The notes under the pieces are model-generated. The model had not been told where the DNA came from and did no database searches. It worked only from the letters and a program-made list of their open reading frames with translations. A stretch of DNA of 36,051 nucleotides, from assembly GCA_025927685.1 (NCBI GenBank), contig JAICKX010000019.1, positions 1 to 36,051 on the forward strand. The letters run 5' to 3'. Position numbers and translations under genes: made by a program. The stretch comes from Thermoleophilia bacterium. GTDB taxonomy: Bacteria; Actinomycetota; Thermoleophilia; Gaiellales; JAICJC01. This document shows positions 19,473 to 27,138 of this stretch, one piece after another (position 1 is the first letter of the stretch; each line of letters opens with the position of its first letter).

Positions 19473-19498
19473 TTGACGAAGGGCCGTCCCTTCGTCAA
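19473..19498 (-). terminator. 11-bp hairpin containing the stop codon of the RsbW-like gene
   Basis: TTGACGAAGGG (19473-19483) pairs with CCCTTCGTCAA (19488-19498) around a 4-nt loop. The TGA of the minus-strand gene (19495-19497) is inside the right arm. Together with the adjacent palindrome it forms a back-to-back double hairpin between convergent genes. Confidence 0.45.
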
Positions 19499-19926
19499 GC
19501 GTGGGTCGGCCGGCCGGGGTAAGGCGCGCGTACGAGCCGGACGTGGATCTCTGTCGGCCGGCTGCGGCGGACGTGCAGCTGTGAGGCGAGCGCGGTGGCG
19601 ATTTGGAGTCCGATTCCGAGGCCGTGGTTCGGGGATTTCCCGAACCCGTGGCCCCAGTCGCGGACGGTCAGAGTGGCTGCGTCGGGCTCACAGAGCACCT
19701 CCACTTCGACGGGCCCCGTCTCGGTATAGGCGTGGTTCACGACGTTCGCGGCGAGCTCGGTGACGATGAGCCCGGCAGCTGCCAGGTCGACGCCTGGACA
19801 CTCGCGGCTCAACGTGTCGAGGACCTCGCGGCGGAGGTGTGGAACGGCCGCCGGCCGGGCCTCGATCTGGGTCTGCCATCGCTGCTCATCGACCGCCTCC
19901 ACGCTGGCGTGGTTCCCCGCTCTCAC
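19495..19926 (-). CDS. RsbW-like anti-sigma factor / ATP-binding protein
   Basis: 143 aa GHKL ATPase of the anti-sigma (HATPase_c_2) type. The N box is VTELAANVVNHAY (55-67, Asn61), the G1 box RDWGHGF (89-95), the G2 box GLGIGL (102-107). Such proteins bind a sigma factor or phosphorylate a STAS antagonist. The GTG at 19926 follows an AGGGG-type ribosome site. The next gene upstream on the same strand is the ANTAR regulator (23 bp). The STAS protein at 21083, encoded divergently, is the obvious candidate partner; the sigma factor is not in this window unless it is SigH. Confidence 0.82.
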   Translation of the reverse strand: MRAGNHASVEAVDEQRWQTQIEARPAAVPHLRREVLDTLSRECPGVDLAAAGLIVTELAANVVNHAYTETGPVEVEVLCEPDAATLTVRDWGHGFGKSPNHGLGIGLQIATALASQLHVRRSRPTEIHVRLVRAPYPGRPTHA

Positions 19927-19949
19927 GGCCCCTAACCGGTCGATGGGAG

Positions 19950-20543
19950 CTACTCGGCGTCGCCGGGCGGTTGGGCGGGGAGCAGCGTGTGGGTGTCGAC
20001 GATGTTCTGGGCGACGTCGATGAGCCGGTGCTGGGTGCGGCGGGAGTGGTCGCGAAGCAGGTTGTAGGCCGCTTGCTCCTCGATCTGGTGGCGCTCCATC
20101 AGGATGCCCTTGGCGCGTTCGGTGACCGCGCGACGGGCGAAGGCGCCTTCGAGGCCGTGGTACTCGGCAAATCGGCGCAGGACGATGTCGAATGAGCTCT
20201 CGAGCCGGTCCGCGTCGCCGTTGACGATGTAGGCGAAGACGCCTCGCTGGGCGGCTTGGTCAACGAACTTGGGGTCTTCCGCGTCGAGCAGGGCGATCAC
20301 CGGGCAATTGCTCTCCCGGACAAGTTCATCGATCAGGGTGAGGGCGTGCTGCGCCTCGTCGAGGCAGACGATGGCCACGTCGGGGTCTTCGTCTGCGGTC
20401 AGCTCGGCCACCGAGCGCGGATCGGTCGCCTGGACGATGACCGCGTGGCCCAGGGAGGTCACCACCTGGGTGACCTGCGCGAGTCGCTCCTGACGCTCAT
20501 CCGCGATCAGGACACGGAGTCCGGTGTGTCGCCGCGAAACCAT
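19950..20543 (-). CDS. ANTAR-domain response regulator
   Basis: 197 aa. Residues ~8-125 form a receiver-like domain (LRVLIADERQERLAQV, DVAIVCLDE with candidate phospho-acceptor Asp62). The conserved receiver Lys is not visible in the expected YIVNGDADRL segment, so it may be a pseudo-receiver. Residues ~133-185 are an ANTAR RNA-binding domain (TERAKGILMERHQIEEQAAY, then RRTQHRLIDVAQNIV). ANTAR proteins bind paired-hairpin RNAs and prevent termination. It sits 23 bp upstream of the RsbW-like gene and is probably cotranscribed. Start is ATG at 20543. Confidence 0.88.
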   Translation of the reverse strand: MVSRRHTGLRVLIADERQERLAQVTQVVTSLGHAVIVQATDPRSVAELTADEDPDVAIVCLDEAQHALTLIDELVRESNCPVIALLDAEDPKFVDQAAQRGVFAYIVNGDADRLESSFDIVLRRFAEYHGLEGAFARRAVTERAKGILMERHQIEEQAAYNLLRDHSRRTQHRLIDVAQNIVDTHTLLPAQPPGDAE

Positions 20544-20735
20544 CGTGCTTGCGGGGAGGTGTCGCCGGTGATCCTACAGGAGCAGCCGCCCAGCGATGGA
20601 GGTTTCGTTCGGCGACGCAGTGGTATCATCAGGACTCGGCCCCAGCACACGGCCGTTGGCCCCCATCGCGCAGTCGGTGGGCGGCGGGCCTCTCTGATCT
20701 GGCCAGGATCGCCTGTCAACGCTGGGAGACCGATC

Positions 20736-21086
20736 GTGGAGTGGTGGCGCGAGCAGGAAGCTCGGAACGAGGTGAGGTTCCGCGCCCAGAACGAGTGGAT
20801 CGAGCAGGCCAGTCAGAGCTTCGCGTCCACTGCCGCCACCGACACGTTCGTGTGCGAGTGCGGAGATGCAACCTGTGCTCAGCCGATCAGCCTGACCACG
20901 GCCGAGTACGAGCACGTGCGCTCGGTCGCAACCCACTTCGTCGTGGCGGTCAACCACGAAGACCCCGAGGTGGAGCGGCTCGTCAGCGAAAACGGACGCT
21001 ACGCCGTTGTCGAGAAGATCTTCGGCTCGGCGCTGCGACTCGCACGGGCGACCGACCCACGAAGCGCGGGTGGTCGGAGGGAGTGA
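20736..21086 (+). CDS. Uncharacterised CECGD-motif protein, possible zinc site
   Basis: 116 aa from the GTG at 20736, chosen for GGGAG 7 bp upstream. The N-terminus is a charged helix (WWREQEARNEVRFRAQNEW), followed by FVCECGDATCAQPISL with Cys40, Cys42 and Cys47, then ATHFVVAVNHEDPEVE with His67 and His74. The cysteine and histidine spacing suggests metal binding. I recall similar CECGD proteins in actinobacterial regulatory clusters but no assigned function. It is translationally coupled to the STAS gene (GTGA overlap) and divergent from the ANTAR gene, so a sensor or adaptor in the same pathway is a reasonable inference. Confidence 0.7.
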   Translation: MEWWREQEARNEVRFRAQNEWIEQASQSFASTAATDTFVCECGDATCAQPISLTTAEYEHVRSVATHFVVAVNHEDPEVERLVSENGRYAVVEKIFGSALRLARATDPRSAGGRRE

Positions 21087-21466
21087 GGACATTGCACACA
21101 CCCGGGACAGTCGAGCTCACGCAGGAACCAACCGCGTGGCACCTGAGGCTCCACGGCGAGCACGACCTCGCCACCGCCCCCGAGCTGGAGCAGGCCATGC
21201 GCACGGTGCTCGACTCCGGCACAACGGTCCTGATCGACCTCACCGGCGCGACGTTCATCGACTCGACGGTCATCCACTGGCTCCTGCGCTGGGCCGGGCA
21301 CGCCGGCCAGCCCGACACGACGCTCCGTCTCGCCGTCGTCGGCGCGTCACCCGAATCCGCCGCCGGCCGCGTCATCGACCTGGCCGGCCTTCGGCACTCC
21401 ATCCCGCTCTACCCGACCACGAACGAGGCGCTCACGGCCGTGGCGTCAGATCGATCTGAGGGTTGA
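21083..21466 (+). CDS. STAS-domain anti-sigma factor antagonist (RsbV-like)
   Basis: 127 aa from the GTG that overlaps the previous stop; a TTG at 21092 is better spaced from the GGAGGG ribosome site and may be the true start. The STAS core is clear: LRLHGEHDLATAPELEQAM, VLIDLTGATFIDSTVIHWLL. The regulatory position reads Asp60-Ser61-Thr62, so a Thr replaces the usual second Ser phosphorylated by RsbW/SpoIIAB-type kinases. Likely partner of the RsbW-like protein at 19495. It ends 43 bp before the left tRNA-derived repeat. Confidence 0.85.
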   Translation: MRTLHTPGTVELTQEPTAWHLRLHGEHDLATAPELEQAMRTVLDSGTTVLIDLTGATFIDSTVIHWLLRWAGHAGQPDTTLRLAVVGASPESAAGRVIDLAGLRHSIPLYPTTNEALTAVASDRSEG

Positions 21467-21481
21467 CGCGAACGGCGCGCC

Positions 21482-22012
21482 GTGGACACGCATGGCGCCC
21501 GCGGTCGCGTCCGTGGGAGAGCCGGGAGCGGGACTCAAACATCGAATCAGCGCAACGCCACTGGCCGCCTCGCCCAAGAGCTCGACGACCTCGCCCCGGT
21601 CGAGCAGGCCATCGCCGACGGACTCGCCGCCGCGGAACGCAACCGCGACCAGTTGATCCGAGAACTCTTCCCCGAACTCGCCGAAGGTCTCCAGCGACGA
21701 GCCGCCGAACGTGTCGAAGCCAGCATCGCGCTCGAGCAGCAGCACGCCGCCGAACGCGCCGCACAGGCCGAAGCCGAGCACGCCCTTCGGGACGAGTGGA
21801 TGCGCCTCGACAGCGCGCTACCCGCTCCGCTGCGCCGCCGCTTCGACGAGCAGGCGCTCAGGCTCGCCCCGATCGAGCCGGACGCCGGCCTCGCCCACTA
21901 CGTCGCAGAACCCGACTGGGCCGGCTGGATGGTCAAGGTCTTGGAAACAAGCCGCGAGCTGCGCGATGAGCAGCGAACCCGAGAAGCCGCCGGCATGGCC
22001 GGATACCGCTGA
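21482..22012 (+). CDS. Coiled-coil hypothetical protein whose 5' end crosses the attachment repeat
   Basis: The open frame runs from a GTG at 21482, but convincing coding sequence starts near 21560 (RLAQELDDLAPVEQAIADGL). It is rich in Ala, Glu and Arg, predicted helical (ERVEASIALEQQHAAERAAQ), with a conserved-looking C-terminus (AHYVAEPDWAGWMVKVLE). No family recognised. There is no ribosome site at 21482 and no in-frame start after the repeat, so the gene is probably truncated by, or translated through, the left attachment site. It leads an operon with the 56-codon gene at 22024. Confidence 0.55.
   Translation: MDTHGARGRVRGRAGSGTQTSNQRNATGRLAQELDDLAPVEQAIADGLAAAERNRDQLIRELFPELAEGLQRRAAERVEASIALEQQHAAERAAQAEAEHALRDEWMRLDSALPAPLRRRFDEQALRLAPIEPDAGLAHYVAEPDWAGWMVKVLETSRELRDEQRTREAAGMAGYR
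21510..21540. repeat. Left attachment-like repeat (orphan tRNA-Thr 3' end)
   Basis: Bases 21510-21536 are identical to 27056-27082, and with one mismatch the match extends to 21540 (CTCAAAC versus CTCGAAC). It holds only the last 17 bases of the tRNA and 10 flanking bases, so it cannot be a functional tRNA. Confidence 0.75.
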
Positions 22013-22023
22013 GGAGGAACACC

Positions 22024-22194
22024 GTGACCGACGAGACAACCCCGACCGCCGACGACCAGCTCGAGGCCGCCCAGACGCGGATCGCAGAGCTTGAACAGGA
22101 GCTCGAAGACGCCAAGCGCGTCGAGCTCATCTCGCCCGAGGAACAGCAGCGAAGGTGGGGCCAGGAGATCCTCGACCAGATCGCGGCATCGTAA
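22024..22194 (+). CDS. Very small coiled-coil protein, 56 aa
   Basis: GTG at 22024 preceded by GAGGAGGA at 22010-22017, which overlaps the stop codon of the upstream gene. The product is an acidic helix (DDQLEAAQTRIAELEQELED) followed by ELISPEEQQRRWGQEILDQI. It is compatible with a dimeric coiled coil. No family recognised. Strong ribosome site, operon position and codon bias make it a credible gene despite its size. Confidence 0.65.
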   Translation: MTDETTPTADDQLEAAQTRIAELEQELEDAKRVELISPEEQQRRWGQEILDQIAAS

Positions 22195-22201
22195 CGCCAG
22201 G

Positions 22202-22690
22202 TCACTCCTCGCTGCCGGCGGAAACCGTCACCATCCAACCCGCCAGCGTCAGCAGGCAACTGACTGCGAGGAATCCGAGGTCCCAGCTCAGCGGCCCGCC
22301 GCGGTCATCGCGGACGTGGTGAATGCCGAGGATCTCGTGATTGACGACTCCCTCGACTACGTTGAACAGCCCGAATCCAACCAAGATCCAGCCGAACAAC
22401 GCTCGGCCATTGAGCGCCCAGCGCCAGTCGGTCGATCGTCGCCACAGAATCCAGATCCCGGCCACTACAGCCAGCCACGTTGCAGCATGAAACAGGCCGT
22501 CCGCCAACGTGTTGTCCTCCAAGCCGCCGATCGTCGTCGTCGGAAAGTCGCCCTCGCTGCTGAGCATGTGGTGCCACTGCAGGATCTGATGAAACACGAT
22601 GCCGTCGACGAACCCGCCGAGCCCAATGCCGAGCAGCAGGCCCGGCAACCTCGGTCGCCGCACGGGTTCAGGCTCCGCACTGCCGCTCAT
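22202..22690 (-). CDS. DUF2243 family membrane protein
   Basis: 162 aa, four membrane helices. The family signature GFVDGIVFHQILQWHHMLS lies at about residues 24-42, and a second matching segment (NVVEGVVNHEILGIHHV) follows in the third or fourth helix, so the protein has an internal repeat of Asp/Glu-Gly-(I/V)-x-x-H and HH motifs. These conserved acidic and histidine residues in membrane segments suggest a metal or cofactor site; the function of DUF2243 is unknown. Start at ATG 22690. It converges with the coiled-coil operon (7 bp between stops). Confidence 0.85.
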   Translation of the reverse strand: MSGSAEPEPVRRPRLPGLLLGIGLGGFVDGIVFHQILQWHHMLSSEGDFPTTTIGGLEDNTLADGLFHAATWLAVVAGIWILWRRSTDWRWALNGRALFGWILVGFGLFNVVEGVVNHEILGIHHVRDDRGGPLSWDLGFLAVSCLLTLAGWMVTVSAGSEE

Positions 22691-22769
22691 GCTGGCCCAC
22701 CGTGCCCGACCGCTCCACCGCCGAGACGCCGACTCTCGCCAGTCCAAGCCGACGGGTCCGACGGCGCGC

Positions 22770-22905
22770 CGTTTGTGAGGCGTCGAGCTCGTCGGAAGAC
22801 GCCACCTGAGCTTCGATCGTGCCCCTCGTGTGGCGTGGAGTTCCTGCCTCGGCGTCGGGATGCGGTGTATTGCGGTGCAACGTGCCGCCAGCGCGCACCC
22901 GAACG
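22770..22905 (+). pseudogene. Remnant encoding a CxxC zinc-binding tail
   Basis: In one frame this stretch reads RSCPSCGVEFLPRRRDAVY followed by CGATCRQRA, the paired-cysteine zinc finger with a terminal CRQRA motif seen at the ends of many actinobacterial element-borne proteins. No start codon lies upstream in frame, and the downstream frame continues into unrelated sequence with no conserved features. It is best read as a fragment left by rearrangement inside the element. Confidence 0.4.
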
Positions 22906-22943
22906 CGGTGACGCCGCCCGCGGACCGGGCTCGGGGTCACTGT

Positions 22944-23090
22944 TCAGATCGGGGTTTCCGGGTCGCCGTGGACGTCGGTTACCTGTTCCGGCGGTTCCGG
23001 TGGATGGTTGGCCGGTGGTTCCGGCTTGTCCGGGCGATCCGCTTCGGGTCGGACAGCTCCACGCTTCTGTCGGGAGTCGTCGTTCGTCAC
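22944..23090 (-). CDS. Possible 48-aa proline-rich protein
   Basis: GTG at 23090 with AAGGA 5 bp upstream opens a 48-codon frame, very rich in Pro, Asp and Glu (DKPEPPANHPPEPPEQVTD). It is likely disordered if made. No homology recognised. Its codon third positions are mixed. I rate it a tentative gene. Confidence 0.3.
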   Translation of the reverse strand: MTNDDSRQKRGAVRPEADRPDKPEPPANHPPEPPEQVTDVHGDPETPI

Positions 23091-23174
23091 GTGATCCTTC
23101 TTGGTTGCGTCGAACCCCGGGGGGTTCTGCGGAACTCGAGCCGCAGGCCCTGATCGGGGGCCCGTCGACGCGCT

Positions 23175-23208
23175 CGAGAGACCTGGAGCGAGGTGTCCAG
23201 GTCTCTCG
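23175..23208 (-). terminator. 13-bp perfect hairpin terminator
   Basis: CGAGAGACCTGGA (23175-23187) and its exact complement (23196-23208) enclose an 8-nt loop, 29 bp past the stop of the small membrane protein gene at 23237. Confidence 0.65.
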
Positions 23209-23236
23209 GCGACGTTGCTCGTGCTGCTCACGGTCG

Positions 23237-23488
23237 TTAGTGCTTGGAGATTGTGAGGCCGAGGAACATGCCAACGATCAGCGCGATTGAACCCGCGGCC
23301 ATGGTCGTCCATGTGCCGGCGTGGGCGGCGGCTTGTGTCGCCTGAGCGCCGGCAAGCGTCGCGGCCTGGGTGGCTTCTGCGCCGGCCTGGGTGGCGGCCT
23401 GGACGGCCTGTGCCTTCTCGAGGTTCTCGACGCGCTTTGAAACATCGTCGGCCGTGGCAGTGCCGTTGTCAGTCATCATGGTGCTCAT
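23237..23488 (-). CDS. Small membrane protein with Ala/Gln/Thr heptad-like repeats
   Basis: 83 aa from the ATG at 23488, selected because GAGGAG lies 6 bp upstream; the frame is open to 23509. The N-terminus holds a coiled-coil region (DDVSKRVENLEKAQAVQA), then repeated AxxAGAxATQAA units (AATQAGAEATQAATLAGAQA), and one C-terminal membrane helix (MAAGSIALIVGMFLGLTI). The layout is a tail-anchored coiled coil with an inside-facing repeat. I do not recognise a function. It is followed by its own hairpin terminator. Confidence 0.65.
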   Translation of the reverse strand: MSTMMTDNGTATADDVSKRVENLEKAQAVQAATQAGAEATQAATLAGAQATQAAAHAGTWTTMAAGSIALIVGMFLGLTISKH

Positions 23489-23557
23489 GGTGTACTCCTC
23501 GTCGGTCATGGTCGTAGCGCCGGCAGGGTGGGCCCGCCGGAGTCAGATAGGGAAATG

Positions 23558-23586
23558 GGGTTGGGCGGACAGCGCCCGCCCAACCC
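23558..23586 (-). terminator. 11-bp perfect hairpin terminator
   Basis: GGGTTGGGCGG (23558-23568) pairs with CCGCCCAACCC (23576-23586) around a 7-nt loop, 10 bp beyond the stop of the gene at 23597; a short ATTTCCC follows on the minus strand. Confidence 0.65.
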
Positions 23587-23596
23587 GATGCGGTGC

Positions 23597-23932
23597 TTAG
23601 CGGTCGTCGCTGTCGGATCCGGCCCAGAAGCGCTCACGGCTTCCGGCCTTGGCCAGGCCACGGCTGACCATGTAGCCGACTGTCAGGATCGTGACGTACA
23701 GCCATGCTCTGGACGCATCGAACGCGTCGCCGTTGGTGTCTGCGCCCGCTCCGCTGCCGTTGCCGCTGCTGACGAGCCACGCGGCGATTAGCACGCCCGC
23801 GACCGCTGCCAAATACGCGAACAGCTCCGTCGTTTTCAGCGAGTGCTTCGTCTCGGTCGTCAACCGCTTCGTACGATCGCGGTCGACGTCGCCGCGAAGA
23901 CTCGCGGTCGTTCGCTCGACGTGTGTGGCCAT
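23597..23932 (-). CDS. Small two-helix membrane protein
   Basis: 111 aa from the ATG at 23932 with AAGGGG upstream. It has a basic soluble N-terminus (TTASLRGDVDRDRTKRL), one helix (LFAYLAAVAGVLIAAWLV), a Gly/Asn/Asp-rich exposed loop, a second helix (AWLYVTILTVGYMVSRGLA) and a charged tail. No named family recognised. It is divergent from the tetR gene, with a palindromic operator in the 134-bp gap, so it is the likely target of that repressor. Confidence 0.65.
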   Translation of the reverse strand: MATHVERTTASLRGDVDRDRTKRLTTETKHSLKTTELFAYLAAVAGVLIAAWLVSSGNGSGAGADTNGDAFDASRAWLYVTILTVGYMVSRGLAKAGSRERFWAGSDSDDR

Positions 23933-24029
23933 TTGTACCCCTTCTCGTGGTGGTTTGCGCGCTCCAAACTGGAGCGGCTGCCCTCCGCCGCTCCCCTGAG
24001 CGCGCCCACCGTGGGCCACGCCGTGAACT

Positions 24030-24047
24030 AGACAGACAGGTCGGTCT
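24030..24047. promoter_or_regulatory. TetR-type operator between divergent genes
   Basis: AGACAGACAGGTCGGTCT is an imperfect palindrome of the form AGACnGACnnGTCnGTCT, 19 bp before the tetR start and 97 bp before the start of the divergent membrane protein gene. This size and symmetry suit a TetR dimer pair. Confidence 0.55.
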
Positions 24048-24066
24048 TACAGTACCCTACTACCGG

Positions 24067-24693
24067 ATGATCCAAACCGGCACAGCACAAGACCGCAAGC
24101 CCACGGCCCGCGAGCGCATCTTGGACACCGCGTATGACCTGTTCTCCCGGCGAGGGATCCGAGCCGTCGGTGTGGACGAGGTAGTCGAGCGAGCCGGGGT
24201 CGCCAAAGCGACCCTCTACCGGCACTTCCCGTCCAAGGACGACCTCGTTCTCGCCTACCTGCAACTCCGCGAGCAACGCTGGACATTCGACTGGGTAGAG
24301 GCCGAGGCACAACGCAGAGGCGCCACCCCCGAAGACCAACTGCTCGCCATCTTCGATGCCTTCGACGAGTGGTTCCACCAAGCGGACTTTGAAGCCTGCT
24401 CATTCATCAACGTCCTGCTGGAGATGGGCACCGCCCACCCCGCCGGCAAAGCAAGCGTCGAGCATCTCAAAAACATCCGCTCGATCATCGGCCGACTCGC
24501 CGAAGCAGCCCACCTCGAGGATCCGGAATCCTTCGCCCGCTCCTGGCACATCCTCATGAAGGGATCGATCGTCTCAGCGGCCGAAGGCGACCACGACGCC
24601 GCCCGCCGCGCCAAAGCCTTGGCCCGACTCCTGCTCGACCAGCACCGCCCGCCATCGGCAGCCGGTGACTGCCGTTCCCAGCTCGCTGGGTGA
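24067..24693 (+). CDS. TetR family transcriptional regulator
   Basis: 208 aa. The N-terminal helix-turn-helix is canonical (RERILDTAYDLFSRRGIRAV, then GVAKATLYRHFPSKDDLV). The ligand domain (about 70-200) contains a FEACSFINVLLEMG segment common in regulators near YcdC/AcrR types. Start ATG at 24067. It probably represses itself and the divergent membrane gene through the palindrome at 24030. The ligand is unknown. It lies inside the tRNA-flanked element and converges with the STAS gene. Confidence 0.88.
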   Translation: MIQTGTAQDRKPTARERILDTAYDLFSRRGIRAVGVDEVVERAGVAKATLYRHFPSKDDLVLAYLQLREQRWTFDWVEAEAQRRGATPEDQLLAIFDAFDEWFHQADFEACSFINVLLEMGTAHPAGKASVEHLKNIRSIIGRLAEAAHLEDPESFARSWHILMKGSIVSAAEGDHDAARRAKALARLLLDQHRPPSAAGDCRSQLAG

Positions 24694-24781
24694 CGTGAGC
24701 CGATGCCTTGACGGATTCCCCTTCGGAGTCGCACGCCTCCACCGCCGTCACCACCGGTGCGCGGCGACGAGGCGGGTCGCG

Positions 24782-25282
24782 TTAGTGTGGCTCTTCGCCG
24801 CGGCGCTCTTCTTCGGACGTGATGTCTTCGAGGCGATGTTCGGCGGCGTCGGATGTGGCTTGCGCGTCCTCGCGGGCGGCGTGAAGTTCGGCGTCGGTGA
24901 GCCATTCCAGGCGTCGCTTGTCGCGCGCTCGCTGTCCTTCCAGGAGGGCAGCCTTGGCGCCGTCGCGTGAGTAGAAGATCGGCAGGCGACCGTTGAGCCC
25001 CACCAGATCGACCAGGCGCGCTGCCGGCGTCTCCCGACCGACAGAGATGGCCAGCGCCTCACGTTGGCTGAGCTGGACATCGTTCGACCACCGCACGAGG
25101 GTATGGATGACGCTCGAATCGGCGAACTCCAGCCCGGATAGGTCGAGCACGCAGCTGGTCGTGTCATCGGAGAGGGCCGCCGTGAGCACACCGTTTAGGG
25201 CCTCGACGTTGGACATGTCGAGCTCGCCCCGCGCTTCGATCACATCGATGGTGCCGTCCTGAGAAACGGTGATCTCCTCCAC
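24782..25282 (-). CDS. STAS-domain anti-sigma factor antagonist with charged C-terminal extension
   Basis: 166 aa. STAS core at 1-110 (IDVIEARGELDMSNVEALN, CVLDLSGLEFADSSVIHTL) with the Asp55-Ser56-Ser57 motif; Ser57 aligns with the serine phosphorylated in SpoIIAA. Residues ~113-166 form an unusual highly charged helical tail (ARDKRRLEWLTDAELHAA...) absent from the paralogue at 21083. It is divergent from the RsbW-like gene at 25325 with 42 bp between starts. The GTG at 25282 has no ribosome site, but a GGGTAC box lies 10-15 bp upstream, suggesting a leaderless message. Confidence 0.85.
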   Translation of the reverse strand: MEEITVSQDGTIDVIEARGELDMSNVEALNGVLTAALSDDTTSCVLDLSGLEFADSSVIHTLVRWSNDVQLSQREALAISVGRETPAARLVDLVGLNGRLPIFYSRDGAKAALLEGQRARDKRRLEWLTDAELHAAREDAQATSDAAEHRLEDITSEEERRGEEPH

Positions 25283-25291
25283 GCCGAAACG

Positions 25292-25315
25292 GTACCCAAT
25301 GACTGGGCTGGGTAT
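25292..25315. promoter_or_regulatory. Divergent GGGTAY -10 boxes between STAS and RsbW-like genes
   Basis: GGGTAT at 25310-25315 (plus) and GGGTAC at 25292-25297 (minus) are mirror-placed. Each is 9-10 bp from the start codon it would serve. GGGTAT is the known -10 of SigB-type promoters; no clear GTTT -35 was found on either side. Confidence 0.4.
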
Positions 25316-25324
25316 TCACCTTTT

Positions 25325-25711
25325 ATGGAGGCGCTCTTCTGGCAGCGACTGCCCGCGACCAAGAATTCACTGCCGACGGCGAGGCACGCCGCCCTCGCCG
25401 CGCTTGAGGCGGCCGGGATCACCCACCCAATCCTGCTCCGGTCGATCGCGCTCGCACTGTCGGAAGCCGTCGGCAACGCGATCGTTCATGCTTATCCAGA
25501 CGACGCTTCGAGAGAGGTCGAGGTCACCATCGTGCGCGACGACCACCGAGTCACGGTCACGGTGGCCGACGAAGGCGTTGGCCTGGAACGAGCCGCGCAG
25601 GGGCCCGGCCTCGGACTCGGCCAGAAACTGATCCACGAACTCGCGAGCTCGTCGGAAATCGACTCCAGCGCGGACGGAACCACCGTCACGATGCGCTTCA
25701 GCACGCGCTAA
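25325..25711 (+). CDS. RsbW-like ATP-binding anti-sigma / serine kinase protein
   Basis: 128 aa GHKL protein. N box ALSEAVGNAIVHAY (44-57, Asn51), G1 box DEGVGL (82-87), G2 GLGLG (95-99). It is predicted to phosphorylate the STAS protein encoded divergently and to sequester a sigma factor. The ATG at 25325 directly follows TTTT with no ribosome site, matching a leaderless transcript from the GGGTAT box. A paralogous pair lies outside the element (19495 and 21083). Confidence 0.85.
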   Translation: MEALFWQRLPATKNSLPTARHAALAALEAAGITHPILLRSIALALSEAVGNAIVHAYPDDASREVEVTIVRDDHRVTVTVADEGVGLERAAQGPGLGLGQKLIHELASSSEIDSSADGTTVTMRFSTR

Positions 25712-25736
25712 TCCGACCCGGGGCTAATCGTCAGCT

Positions 25737-25766
25737 CGTCGGTGCCATGCAAAAGGCATGCCGACG
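25737..25766 (+). terminator. Imperfect hairpin after the RsbW-like gene
   Basis: CGTCGGTGCC and GGCATGCCGACG flank ATGCAAAA with a 2-nt bulge, 25 bp past the stop at 25711. The following 210 bp up to 25978 hold no gene I can support. Confidence 0.4.
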
Positions 25767-25978
25767 ATAACGAGCGCGACGCCGGCGGCGGGCAAGCGAA
25801 CCGGCATGGACAGACTGAGTCGGCTGACGAAGAGGTCGGCGTGAGATTGTCGCTTGGGCGAAGTTAGGCGGTGCCTCGACCGCGCTCCCGCGCCGACCAC
25901 TCGACAGATTTCTTAGGGGGAACCGCTACGCCTCGTCCCCGCCGGCCGCCACCTTCGCGGGGGGGGAGAGGCGTGGGG

Positions 25979-26293
25979 TCAGGCCGCCGGAGGCGACTCG
26001 AGCGGCGGATGATCCTCAGCTGTGAAAAAGCCCGGCGCATGGTGAGGGTCAGACGCTGCGACCGTCACTCGGGCAACGGCCTCCACCGGCACGAACTCCG
26101 TGGTGTCCTCTTCGTCGTCCGTCGTGCACCGGAGCATGACCCAGTCGCGGATTTCGTCGCCGTAGCTCACGACGGTGTCGACGATGAGGGTTTCGCCCGA
26201 CGCCAGATGGACACGAACCTCGGCCGATTCGCCAGCCTTCTTTCGCCGCTCGACCTCGGCCGCGACATATCTGTAGGCCTGCCGCGTGATCAT
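25979..26293 (-). CDS. Hypothetical protein, 104 aa
   Basis: Start ATG at 26293. The N-terminus is a helix (TRQAYRYVAAEVERRKKAGE) followed by beta strands (AEVRVHLASGETLIVDTVVS, then DWVMLRCTTDDEEDTTEFVP), reminiscent of small SH3-like or PRC-like barrels. No family recognised. The tail is proline-rich. It lies downstream of and on the same strand as the TumE-like gene (222 bp apart), within the tRNA-flanked element. The 222-bp gap holds nothing convincing. Confidence 0.5.
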   Translation of the reverse strand: MITRQAYRYVAAEVERRKKAGESAEVRVHLASGETLIVDTVVSYGDEIRDWVMLRCTTDDEEDTTEFVPVEAVARVTVAASDPHHAPGFFTAEDHPPLESPPAA

Positions 26294-26515
26294 CTGCGCA
26301 GAGCATACCCAGGGGATCCTCAGCGCCCTCGCGCGGCTCGAGAGCGTCGTTGCTCGTGCACCGCGTTCGATCGCCCAATGCTCGCAGCGGCGCCCCTCGC
26401 TCTCAGGCGTGTCGCGGCAGAGCCAACGGCCCGACTCGGAGCACGGGCACGTTTCGAGGCCGGCGGAGCAGCCGCCAGGCAGTGGCCGGTGGAGGCGCCA
26501 CAAAGCGAACAGGCG

Positions 26516-26797
26516 CTAGCGGAGTTCAAGATCGCCACGACCGACCCGGAGCGAAACCTCGTCCCACGCAATCTCCACCGCCTCTCGAGACGACACGGCG
26601 CCCCACGGCTCACCGGTGGGATTGTCCTCGCCTACGTGGCGGTGTTCGGCAGGATCATGGCTCTGGTCACGCTCATAGCCCCAGGCCTCGACTCCATCGA
26701 TCACCAGGTAGTAGGCGTACTCGTCGCGGTGGATCCGGCTCCCGCGGACGACCACCCGTTCCGAGACTTCTACGCCGCCGAACTGGCCGCGGGCCAT
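26516..26797 (-). CDS. TumE/DUF6516-like protein, possible toxin of a toxin-antitoxin pair
   Basis: 93 aa from the ATG at 26797 (the frame is open to 26890). The core RIHRDEYAYYLVIDG, GYERDQSH, HRHVGEDN and a C-terminal acidic helix (SREAVEIAWDEV) follow the pattern of the DUF6516/TumE family (aromatic-rich strand, YDN-like turn, H-HxG motif). TumE proteins are known as toxins paired with an XRE-type antitoxin; no antitoxin gene is recognised next to it. The assignment is from memory of the family pattern and is moderate. Its N-terminal part overlaps a competing coding signal on the plus strand. Confidence 0.45.
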   Translation of the reverse strand: MARGQFGGVEVSERVVVRGSRIHRDEYAYYLVIDGVEAWGYERDQSHDPAEHRHVGEDNPTGEPWGAVSSREAVEIAWDEVSLRVGRGDLELR

Positions 26798-26941
26798 GTC
26801 AAGGGCATCCCAGGTTTCCACCGCCACTTTTGGGCGAGCTGCTACCGGGACCTGATGCGGCTCCGGGGTGCGGACGACTTTGCCGAGCACGCCGAGCGCG
26901 TGCTCGAGCCCGCCTGCTAGTCCACCGTCCGCGGCGCGGCC

Positions 26942-27055
26942 TTGTGCCGTATTTGTGCCGCCAGCGGGAAAATGCCTGCAGGCTGGCAGCCGATCCGACT
27001 CGGCTTGGCTAGGCGCTTTGTCGCCTATCGATGCCGTTTGTCTCCCCGTGTCGCC
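26942..27055. repeat. Short direct repeats beside the right attachment site (possible recombinase arm sites)
   Basis: TTGTGCCG occurs at 26942-26949 and 26953-26960. TTTGTCGCC (27017), TTTGTCTCC (27037) and GTGTCGCC (27048) are related repeats ending next to the 27-bp core. Clustered short repeats beside a tRNA core are what arm-type integrase sites look like. No gene is supported here. Confidence 0.35.
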
Positions 27056-27082
27056 TCCGTGGGAGAGCCGGGAGCGGGACTC
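27056..27082. repeat. Right attachment-like repeat overlapping tRNA-Thr 3' end
   Basis: Identical to 21510-21536. It covers the last 17 bases of the tRNA (T-arm 3' side, acceptor and discriminator) and 10 bases beyond. Confidence 0.75.
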
Positions 27083-27138
27083 GAACCCGCGACCGTCCGA
27101 TTACAAATCGGAGGCTCTACCAGCTGAGCTACCCCGGC
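27066..27138 (-). tRNA. tRNA-Thr (anticodon TGT)
   Basis: On the minus strand the 73-nt sequence folds as a full cloverleaf: acceptor GCCGGGG/TCCCGGC (one G-U pair), D-arm GCTC...GAGC, anticodon stem TCCGA/TCGGA with loop TTTGTAA (anticodon TGT, reads ACA), and T-arm GCGGG TTCGAGT CCCGC. The discriminator is T and the CCA end is not encoded. Its 3' end coincides with the repeat at 27056-27082. Confidence 0.95.

Follow-up and report, generated by a model that had tools for sequence, protein, structure and literature searches.

A candidate non-autonomous island with stress-regulation cargo at a tRNA-Thr gene of a Thermoleophilia bacterium

Cis-mobilizable elements (CIMEs) are defined by the presence of the attachment sites attL and attR and the absence of integration and transfer genes, and in the accretion described for ICESt1-type elements such units stand in tandem at one target (PMC5704250). 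Fifteen islands without integration genes were also found at ssrA in Dehalococcoides and were suggested to be CIMEs (PMC3146451). Here we describe a 5.5-kb segment at a tRNA-Thr gene of a Thermoleophilia bacterium, whose genome is a soil-type actinobacterial one. The analysed window is a whole contig (JAICKX010000019.1, here C94; 36,051 bp) of an assembly termed G000 (GCA_025927685.1; 3.34 Mb, 198 contigs, 81.5%-complete). With a probability of about 0.7 the segment, 21537-27055, is a non-autonomous CIME-like island at tRNA-Thr(TGT), in which the att sites are kept and the mobility genes are absent. The general kind is already known, while the stress-regulation cargo looks unusually recurrent.

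Both ends of the segment carry the same 27 bp, TCCGTGGGAGAGCCGGGAGCGGGACTC, and the initial annotation of this DNA, which had claimed a perfect repeat of the tRNA-Thr 3' end at both boundaries, was correct in this respect. When two mismatches are allowed the repeat lengthens to 37 bp and spans the final 22 nt of tRNA-Thr, starting from the T-loop, together with about 15 nt beyond the gene. The locus thus pairs an intact tRNA gene with a displaced 3' fragment that has the same orientation, which is the arrangement expected of an island in a tRNA gene (tDNA). The sites at the two ends are:

27065-27138, minus strand: intact tRNA-Thr (TGT), the integration target (Rfam tRNA, 67.9 bits); its 3' end faces the element
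27056-27082 (exact; 27050-27086 with 2 mismatches), plus strand: tRNA-proximal repeat, the 3' 22 nt of the tRNA and sequence downstream
21510-21536 (exact; 21504-21540 with 2 mismatches), plus strand: distal repeat, the displaced tRNA 3' fragment that makes up the distal att site
26942-26959, plus strand: short direct repeat TTGTGCCG..TTGTGCC, 100 bp inside the tRNA-proximal end, possibly an integrase arm-type site (weak)

In the whole assembly, with up to three mismatches allowed, only these two copies of the repeat occur, and it is not a general host feature. A search for further tRNA-Thr fragments to the left of it found none. The TTGTGCC repeat was sought in the other fetched loci as well and, being absent from them, was rejected as a general arm site.

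The borders are independently supported by the G+C content at third codon positions (GC3), which steps at both repeats. The nine interior genes tested have GC3 of 0.736-0.806 and the eighteen core genes on both sides 0.894-0.977 (p 3e-5). At the right border the jump is sharp (0.736 to 0.933); at the left one it is smaller (0.80 to 0.875), and there the element meets a cassette (19495-21466) of intermediate GC3 (0.81-0.875), which exceeds that of the element (p 0.007). Total GC drops between ~17.5 kb and 27.5 kb. From this GC3 pattern 21537-27055 is read as a recent unit that adjoins an older acquired cassette. The interior is therefore compositionally distinct from the host, and its proteins are mostly unmatched at the tRNA-Thr loci of relatives.

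No tyrosine or serine recombinase was found on the contig by six-frame searches with PF00589 (tyrosine) and PF00239 (serine/resolvase), and Pfam scans of the main open reading frames (ORFs) gave no relaxase or capsid family in the element and no phage-satellite genes (packaging, capsid-remodelling or phage-response). The earlier observation that recombinase, relaxase and capsid genes are missing was thus confirmed; the accompanying idea of a minimal passenger or satellite stands as far as an integrated, integrase-free, att-bounded element is meant, and gains no support for a phage satellite, none of whose genes were found. With attL and attR present and integration and transfer genes absent, the segment agrees with the definition of a CIME. 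No known parent among integrative and conjugative or integrative and mobilizable elements (ICEs, IMEs) was recovered, and no phage, plasmid or viral contig has the unit: distant blastn searches returned only short single-gene matches, those in phages and plasmids being DUF2243 or TetR, and the 26-nt core of the repeat is absent from viral contigs. Elsewhere in G000 there are four tyrosine recombinase matches (by eye two are Xer-like and two are remnants, short or broken) and a single resolvase. In contig C43 of the same genome (L088, 6106-8184) the 3' half of a tRNA-Asp is repeated as a perfect 46-bp copy 2 kb downstream of the gene; the remnant of a tyrosine integrase adjoins this tRNA, and the interval contains ORFs that look AbiEii/AbiEi-like by eye. 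We read this locus as a second, decayed tRNA island.

The interior of the element carries the following genes and signals:

21482-22012, plus strand: coiled-coil ORF, possibly 5'-truncated at the border, its frame opening across the left repeat
22024-22194, plus strand: 56-aa coiled-coil ORF after the preceding one
22202-22747, minus strand: DUF2243 membrane protein (Pfam 2.7e-48)
23175-23208, minus strand: perfect 13-bp hairpin 3' of p23237
23237-23509, minus strand: p23237, small protein with a C-terminal transmembrane-like segment; its Streptomyces relatives adjoin p23597 homologues
23555-23589, minus strand: 14-bp hairpin 3' of p23597
23597-23932, minus strand: p23597, small membrane protein of an unnamed actinobacterial family, with the motif TETK..KTTE / YMVSRGLAKxGSR
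24030-24047, no strand: predicted TetR operator AGACAGACAGGTCGGTCT, in the gap that separates p23597 from the divergent TetR gene
24067-24693, plus strand: TetR-family regulator (TetR_N 1.9e-19)
24782-25282, minus strand: STAS protein (anti-sigma-factor-antagonist type) with a C-terminal extension (STAS 7e-10)
25325-25711, plus strand: HATPase_c_2 protein (8.5e-21) resembling the anti-sigma kinases RsbW/SpoIIAB; its gene and the STAS gene diverge
25979-26293, minus strand: hypothetical protein
26516-26890, minus strand: hypothetical protein with sub-threshold TumE similarity (E 0.029; 14.8 bits against a Pfam cutoff of 23.4)

Part of this cargo recurs at tRNA genes of the class. Of 45 independent loci, all from Thermoleophilia, nine have the p23597 homologue no more than 1.2 kb downstream of a tRNA or transfer-messenger RNA (tmRNA) 3' end, or of an orphan 3' fragment of one, against 2.4% expected (p 1e-6); at two loci it lies on the opposite side, in one of these between two fragments. 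T-arm pattern matches that agree with known tRNAs at 18 or fewer of 25 positions probably arose by chance and were left out of the evidence. TetR homologues are within 2.5 kb of such sites at 5/34 loci. Around the TetR homologues the same partners return, namely STAS, CECGD (a protein with a CECGDxxC motif), p23597 and p23237, and another cargo gene is located within 4 kb at six TetR loci and eight p23597 loci, while the control yielded two weak TetR matches in 320 kb. The initial annotation had proposed to look for the repeat and the gene set elsewhere: the repeat occurs nowhere else in the assembly, and related cargo is present in other repeat-bounded units.

Two of these are integrase-free and fully delimited by repeats. 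L122 is a 6.5-kb unit at tRNA-Ser that carries a TetR and a CECGD gene and bears IS481-like remnants (by eye) at both ends. In L154 a pair of tRNA-Leu 3' fragments encloses 2.0 kb, whose sole contents are CECGD, p23597 and small ORFs. In their genomes all PF00589 matches lie outside the units, the nearest one in G298 being ~5.6 kb beyond the unit. At L162 a 408-aa tyrosine integrase is followed after ~320 bp by an orphan tRNA 3' fragment and then by p23597, which is suggestive of the tandem expected when an integrase-bearing element stands beside a cargo unit. At L168 / L233 (JACRMD010000265.1) a tmRNA 3' end occupies positions 1-29, at the contig start, with a p23597 homologue 149 bp downstream and an RsbW-like gene nearby. 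Such cargo-only tRNA units seem to be a recurrent route by which this uncultured soil class shuffles regulatory and envelope genes. As a separate observation, L095 (G001:C57, 3900-4061) has the orphan 3' half of a tRNA with CATAACCC (Met-like), in front of which stands the direct repeat GGTTTGCCC; this is the att-like border of a further island, and an ORF with RHS/YD repeats lies upstream of it. In the viral collection three IMG/VR contigs (L294-L296) carry distant relatives of p23597.

The site that lies between p23597 and the divergent TetR gene is an 18-bp palindrome, AGAC.GAC..GTC.GTCT, that is kept upstream of homologous TetR genes: at 16 or more of its 18 positions it is found at 14/35 of them, with 15 such sites in total in 459 kb. 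Since the palindrome recurs in this position, it is likely to be an autoregulatory operator, and the earlier prediction of a TetR regulator with its operator gained support. Together, p23597 and TetR with the AGACAGACCGGTCTGTCT operator offer handles to find more units and to probe what mobilises them.

The remaining cargo supports the initial annotation unevenly. The divergent STAS/RsbW pair and the DUF2243 gene were recovered by Pfam. The best models for the pair are an anti-sigma antagonist and SpoIIAB/RsbW, with scores under the equivalog cutoffs, so that HATPase kinase and STAS antagonist, the two parts of a partner switch, are present at the domain level; the element holds no sigma factor. 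The proposal that it installs a stress switch in its host is drawn from this pair alone. The TumE-like assignment is very weak, the score being below the gathering cutoff and no partner TumA being found. It had also been stated that each small gene has its own hairpin terminator, which is only partly right: strong hairpins do follow p23237 and p23597, but they lack T-tracts, and shuffled sequence contains terminator-like sites just as often. Neither p23597 (Pfam, NCBIfam) nor p23237 (Pfam) has a match above cutoff, and no convincing homologue of the 21482-22012 ORF was found in the order or in viral contigs. A frame at 22775-22975 (plus strand), overlapping other ORFs, has a zinc-ribbon-like motif (CPSCGxxF...DAxYCGATCRQRA) and is possibly a small or degraded gene.

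To the left of the distal repeat, and outside it, lies the cassette of intermediate GC3:

19495-19926, minus strand: HATPase (Pfam)
19950-20543, minus strand: ANTAR regulator (Pfam)
20706-21086, plus strand: CECGD protein, recurrent, with no Pfam match
21083-21466, plus strand: STAS (Pfam)

This HATPase-ANTAR-CECGD-STAS cassette is syntenic with G001:C185 and is likely an older accreted one. As a cassette of this content and composition stands just outside the left repeat, the element probably belongs, as one unit among others, to a larger region built by accretion; of the earlier view that the repeats delimit foreign cargo, the att-bounded unit stands, but its left repeat is not a border to ordinary host DNA. 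Elsewhere in G000, in contig C75 (L082, 2674-5923), the sole resolvase-family match of the genome has a further ANTAR regulator, a homologue of the one in the window, at a distance of ~2.2 kb.

The target locus itself was compared among relatives. The block CysS-TrmH-NYN-sigma-tRNA-Thr is conserved in the genus and the family, and tRNA-Thr adjoins the sigma-factor gene in most genomes of the order examined. Beyond its 3' end every relative examined is different: G001 has an rnhA-like gene, G003 has an unrelated one, and the contig stops there in G002 and a little further on in G004. The locus looks like a variable spot. Except for the RsbW-like ones, the interior proteins have no match at the tRNA-Thr loci of relatives. 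TetR homologues are patchy across the class (55-74% identity), and at E 1e-30 the four nearest relatives have none. Two candidate markers were rejected, i.e., the rnhA-like gene as the ancestral neighbour, since the matches in other family genomes are 32-40% identical and located elsewhere, and PLC as a left-flank marker, since all five family genomes have it but without synteny.

Several of the observations speak against a CIME-like island. An empty site, in which tRNA-Thr would be directly joined to CTCTCCCACGGACGCGACCGCGGGCGCC, was not found in any of the genus, family and order relatives examined; the closest relatives are of genus level only and have another downstream side at tRNA-Thr, hence the empty-site comparison proposed in the initial annotation gives no answer. 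The arm-type sites are weak, the association of TetR with tRNAs is modest by itself (p 0.02), and regulatory cargo spills beyond the repeats into the similar left cassette. Finally, beyond Thermoleophilia p23597 homologues are mostly away from tRNAs: in an 80-locus sample those of Streptomyces, Nocardioides and Actinoplanes lacked the link for the most part, while the p23597/p23237 pairing persists in Streptomyces. We read this as the tRNA association belonging to the islands of this class and not to the p23597 family.

Among the alternative explanations, the one that comes closest holds that the whole low-GC3 stretch of ~19.5-27.1 kb arrived as one island and that the left repeat marks an att site inside it, where two accreted units meet. 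The GC3 of the left cassette is under that of core genes, gene types ANTAR, CECGD and STAS co-occur with p23597 in L158, L160 and L161, and in G001 this cassette is found at another site, next to a p23237 homologue; yet the cassette differs from the element in GC3 and no third tRNA-Thr fragment closes the left side, and we regard a single arrival as possible though somewhat doubtful. Slightly more doubtful still is a decayed remnant of a larger autonomous prophage, ICE or IME, now fixed and immobile after deletion of its integrase and transfer genes. The first ORF, whose frame crosses the left repeat, may be 5'-truncated, the repeats have drifted (2/37 mismatches), and the tRNA-Asp locus with its integrase remnant and perfect 46-bp copy illustrates such decay in the same genome. 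However, the interior shows no traces of integrase, relaxase or phage genes, most of its ORFs look intact, and the 2.0-kb L154 shows that cargo-only units recur.

An assembly artefact, in which two pieces were joined at the 27-bp repeat, could be imagined in a fragmented, binned metagenome whose contig forms the entire window, but a repeat of this length is below usual assembly k-mers, its copies run into different sequence, and the same architecture is present in other assemblies (L122, L154), which makes this very improbable. That the left repeat is an unrelated sequence matching by chance is refuted: ~2e-6 exact 27-mers are expected in the window and none occurred in shuffled sequence, its orientation and order relative to the tRNA are correct, and GC3 steps at both borders.

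For the CIME-like island, the following course may be proposed. Site-specific recombination by a tyrosine integrase that recognises the T-loop and 3' end would have placed it at the 3' end of tRNA-Thr(TGT), and the integrase of another element with the same tRNA specificity would most likely mobilise it, or have once mobilised it, in trans or after adjacent landing. The cargo would be drawn from a gene pool that recurs at different tRNA genes of Thermoleophilia (TetR, p23597, p23237 and STAS/HATPase pairs). Once installed, TetR would repress itself and the divergent p23597, and the STAS/HATPase pair, as an anti-sigma/antagonist switch, would modulate a host sigma factor. A far broader model, that 2-7 kb integrase-free cassettes with tRNA/tmRNA 3'-end repeats share stress-regulation cargo (p23597, autoregulated TetR, CECGD, STAS/HATPase/ANTAR) across the tRNA sites of the whole class by using the integrases of others, as a tRNA-based counterpart of integron cassettes, is speculative and rather unlikely.

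Compared with known systems, the element shares with CIMEs the att sites kept without mobility genes and the tandem placing of units at one target gene; the published account treats CIMEs as ICEs or IMEs that have decayed (PMC5704250), whereas here no related autonomous parent was found and related cargo is present at several different tRNA genes. In RsbV/RsbW and SpoIIAA/SpoIIAB, as in the element, a STAS gene adjoins a HATPase_c_2 kinase gene, but the genes of the element are divergent and not operonic, score below equivalog cutoffs and have no cognate sigma factor inside. The tDNA islands of Islander likewise have at their ends an intact tDNA and, oriented the same way, a displaced 3' fragment; Islander demands an integrase gene inside, which this element lacks, and would reject it by design (PMC4383910), so that finders of this kind overlook cargo-only tRNA units. 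The nearest described precedent is the ssrA islands of Dehalococcoides, which also have 3'-end repeats of a stable-RNA gene, recurrent cargo and no integration module, and which differ in their single tmRNA target, the serine-recombinase relatives in the array and their reductive dehalogenase cargo (PMC3146451).

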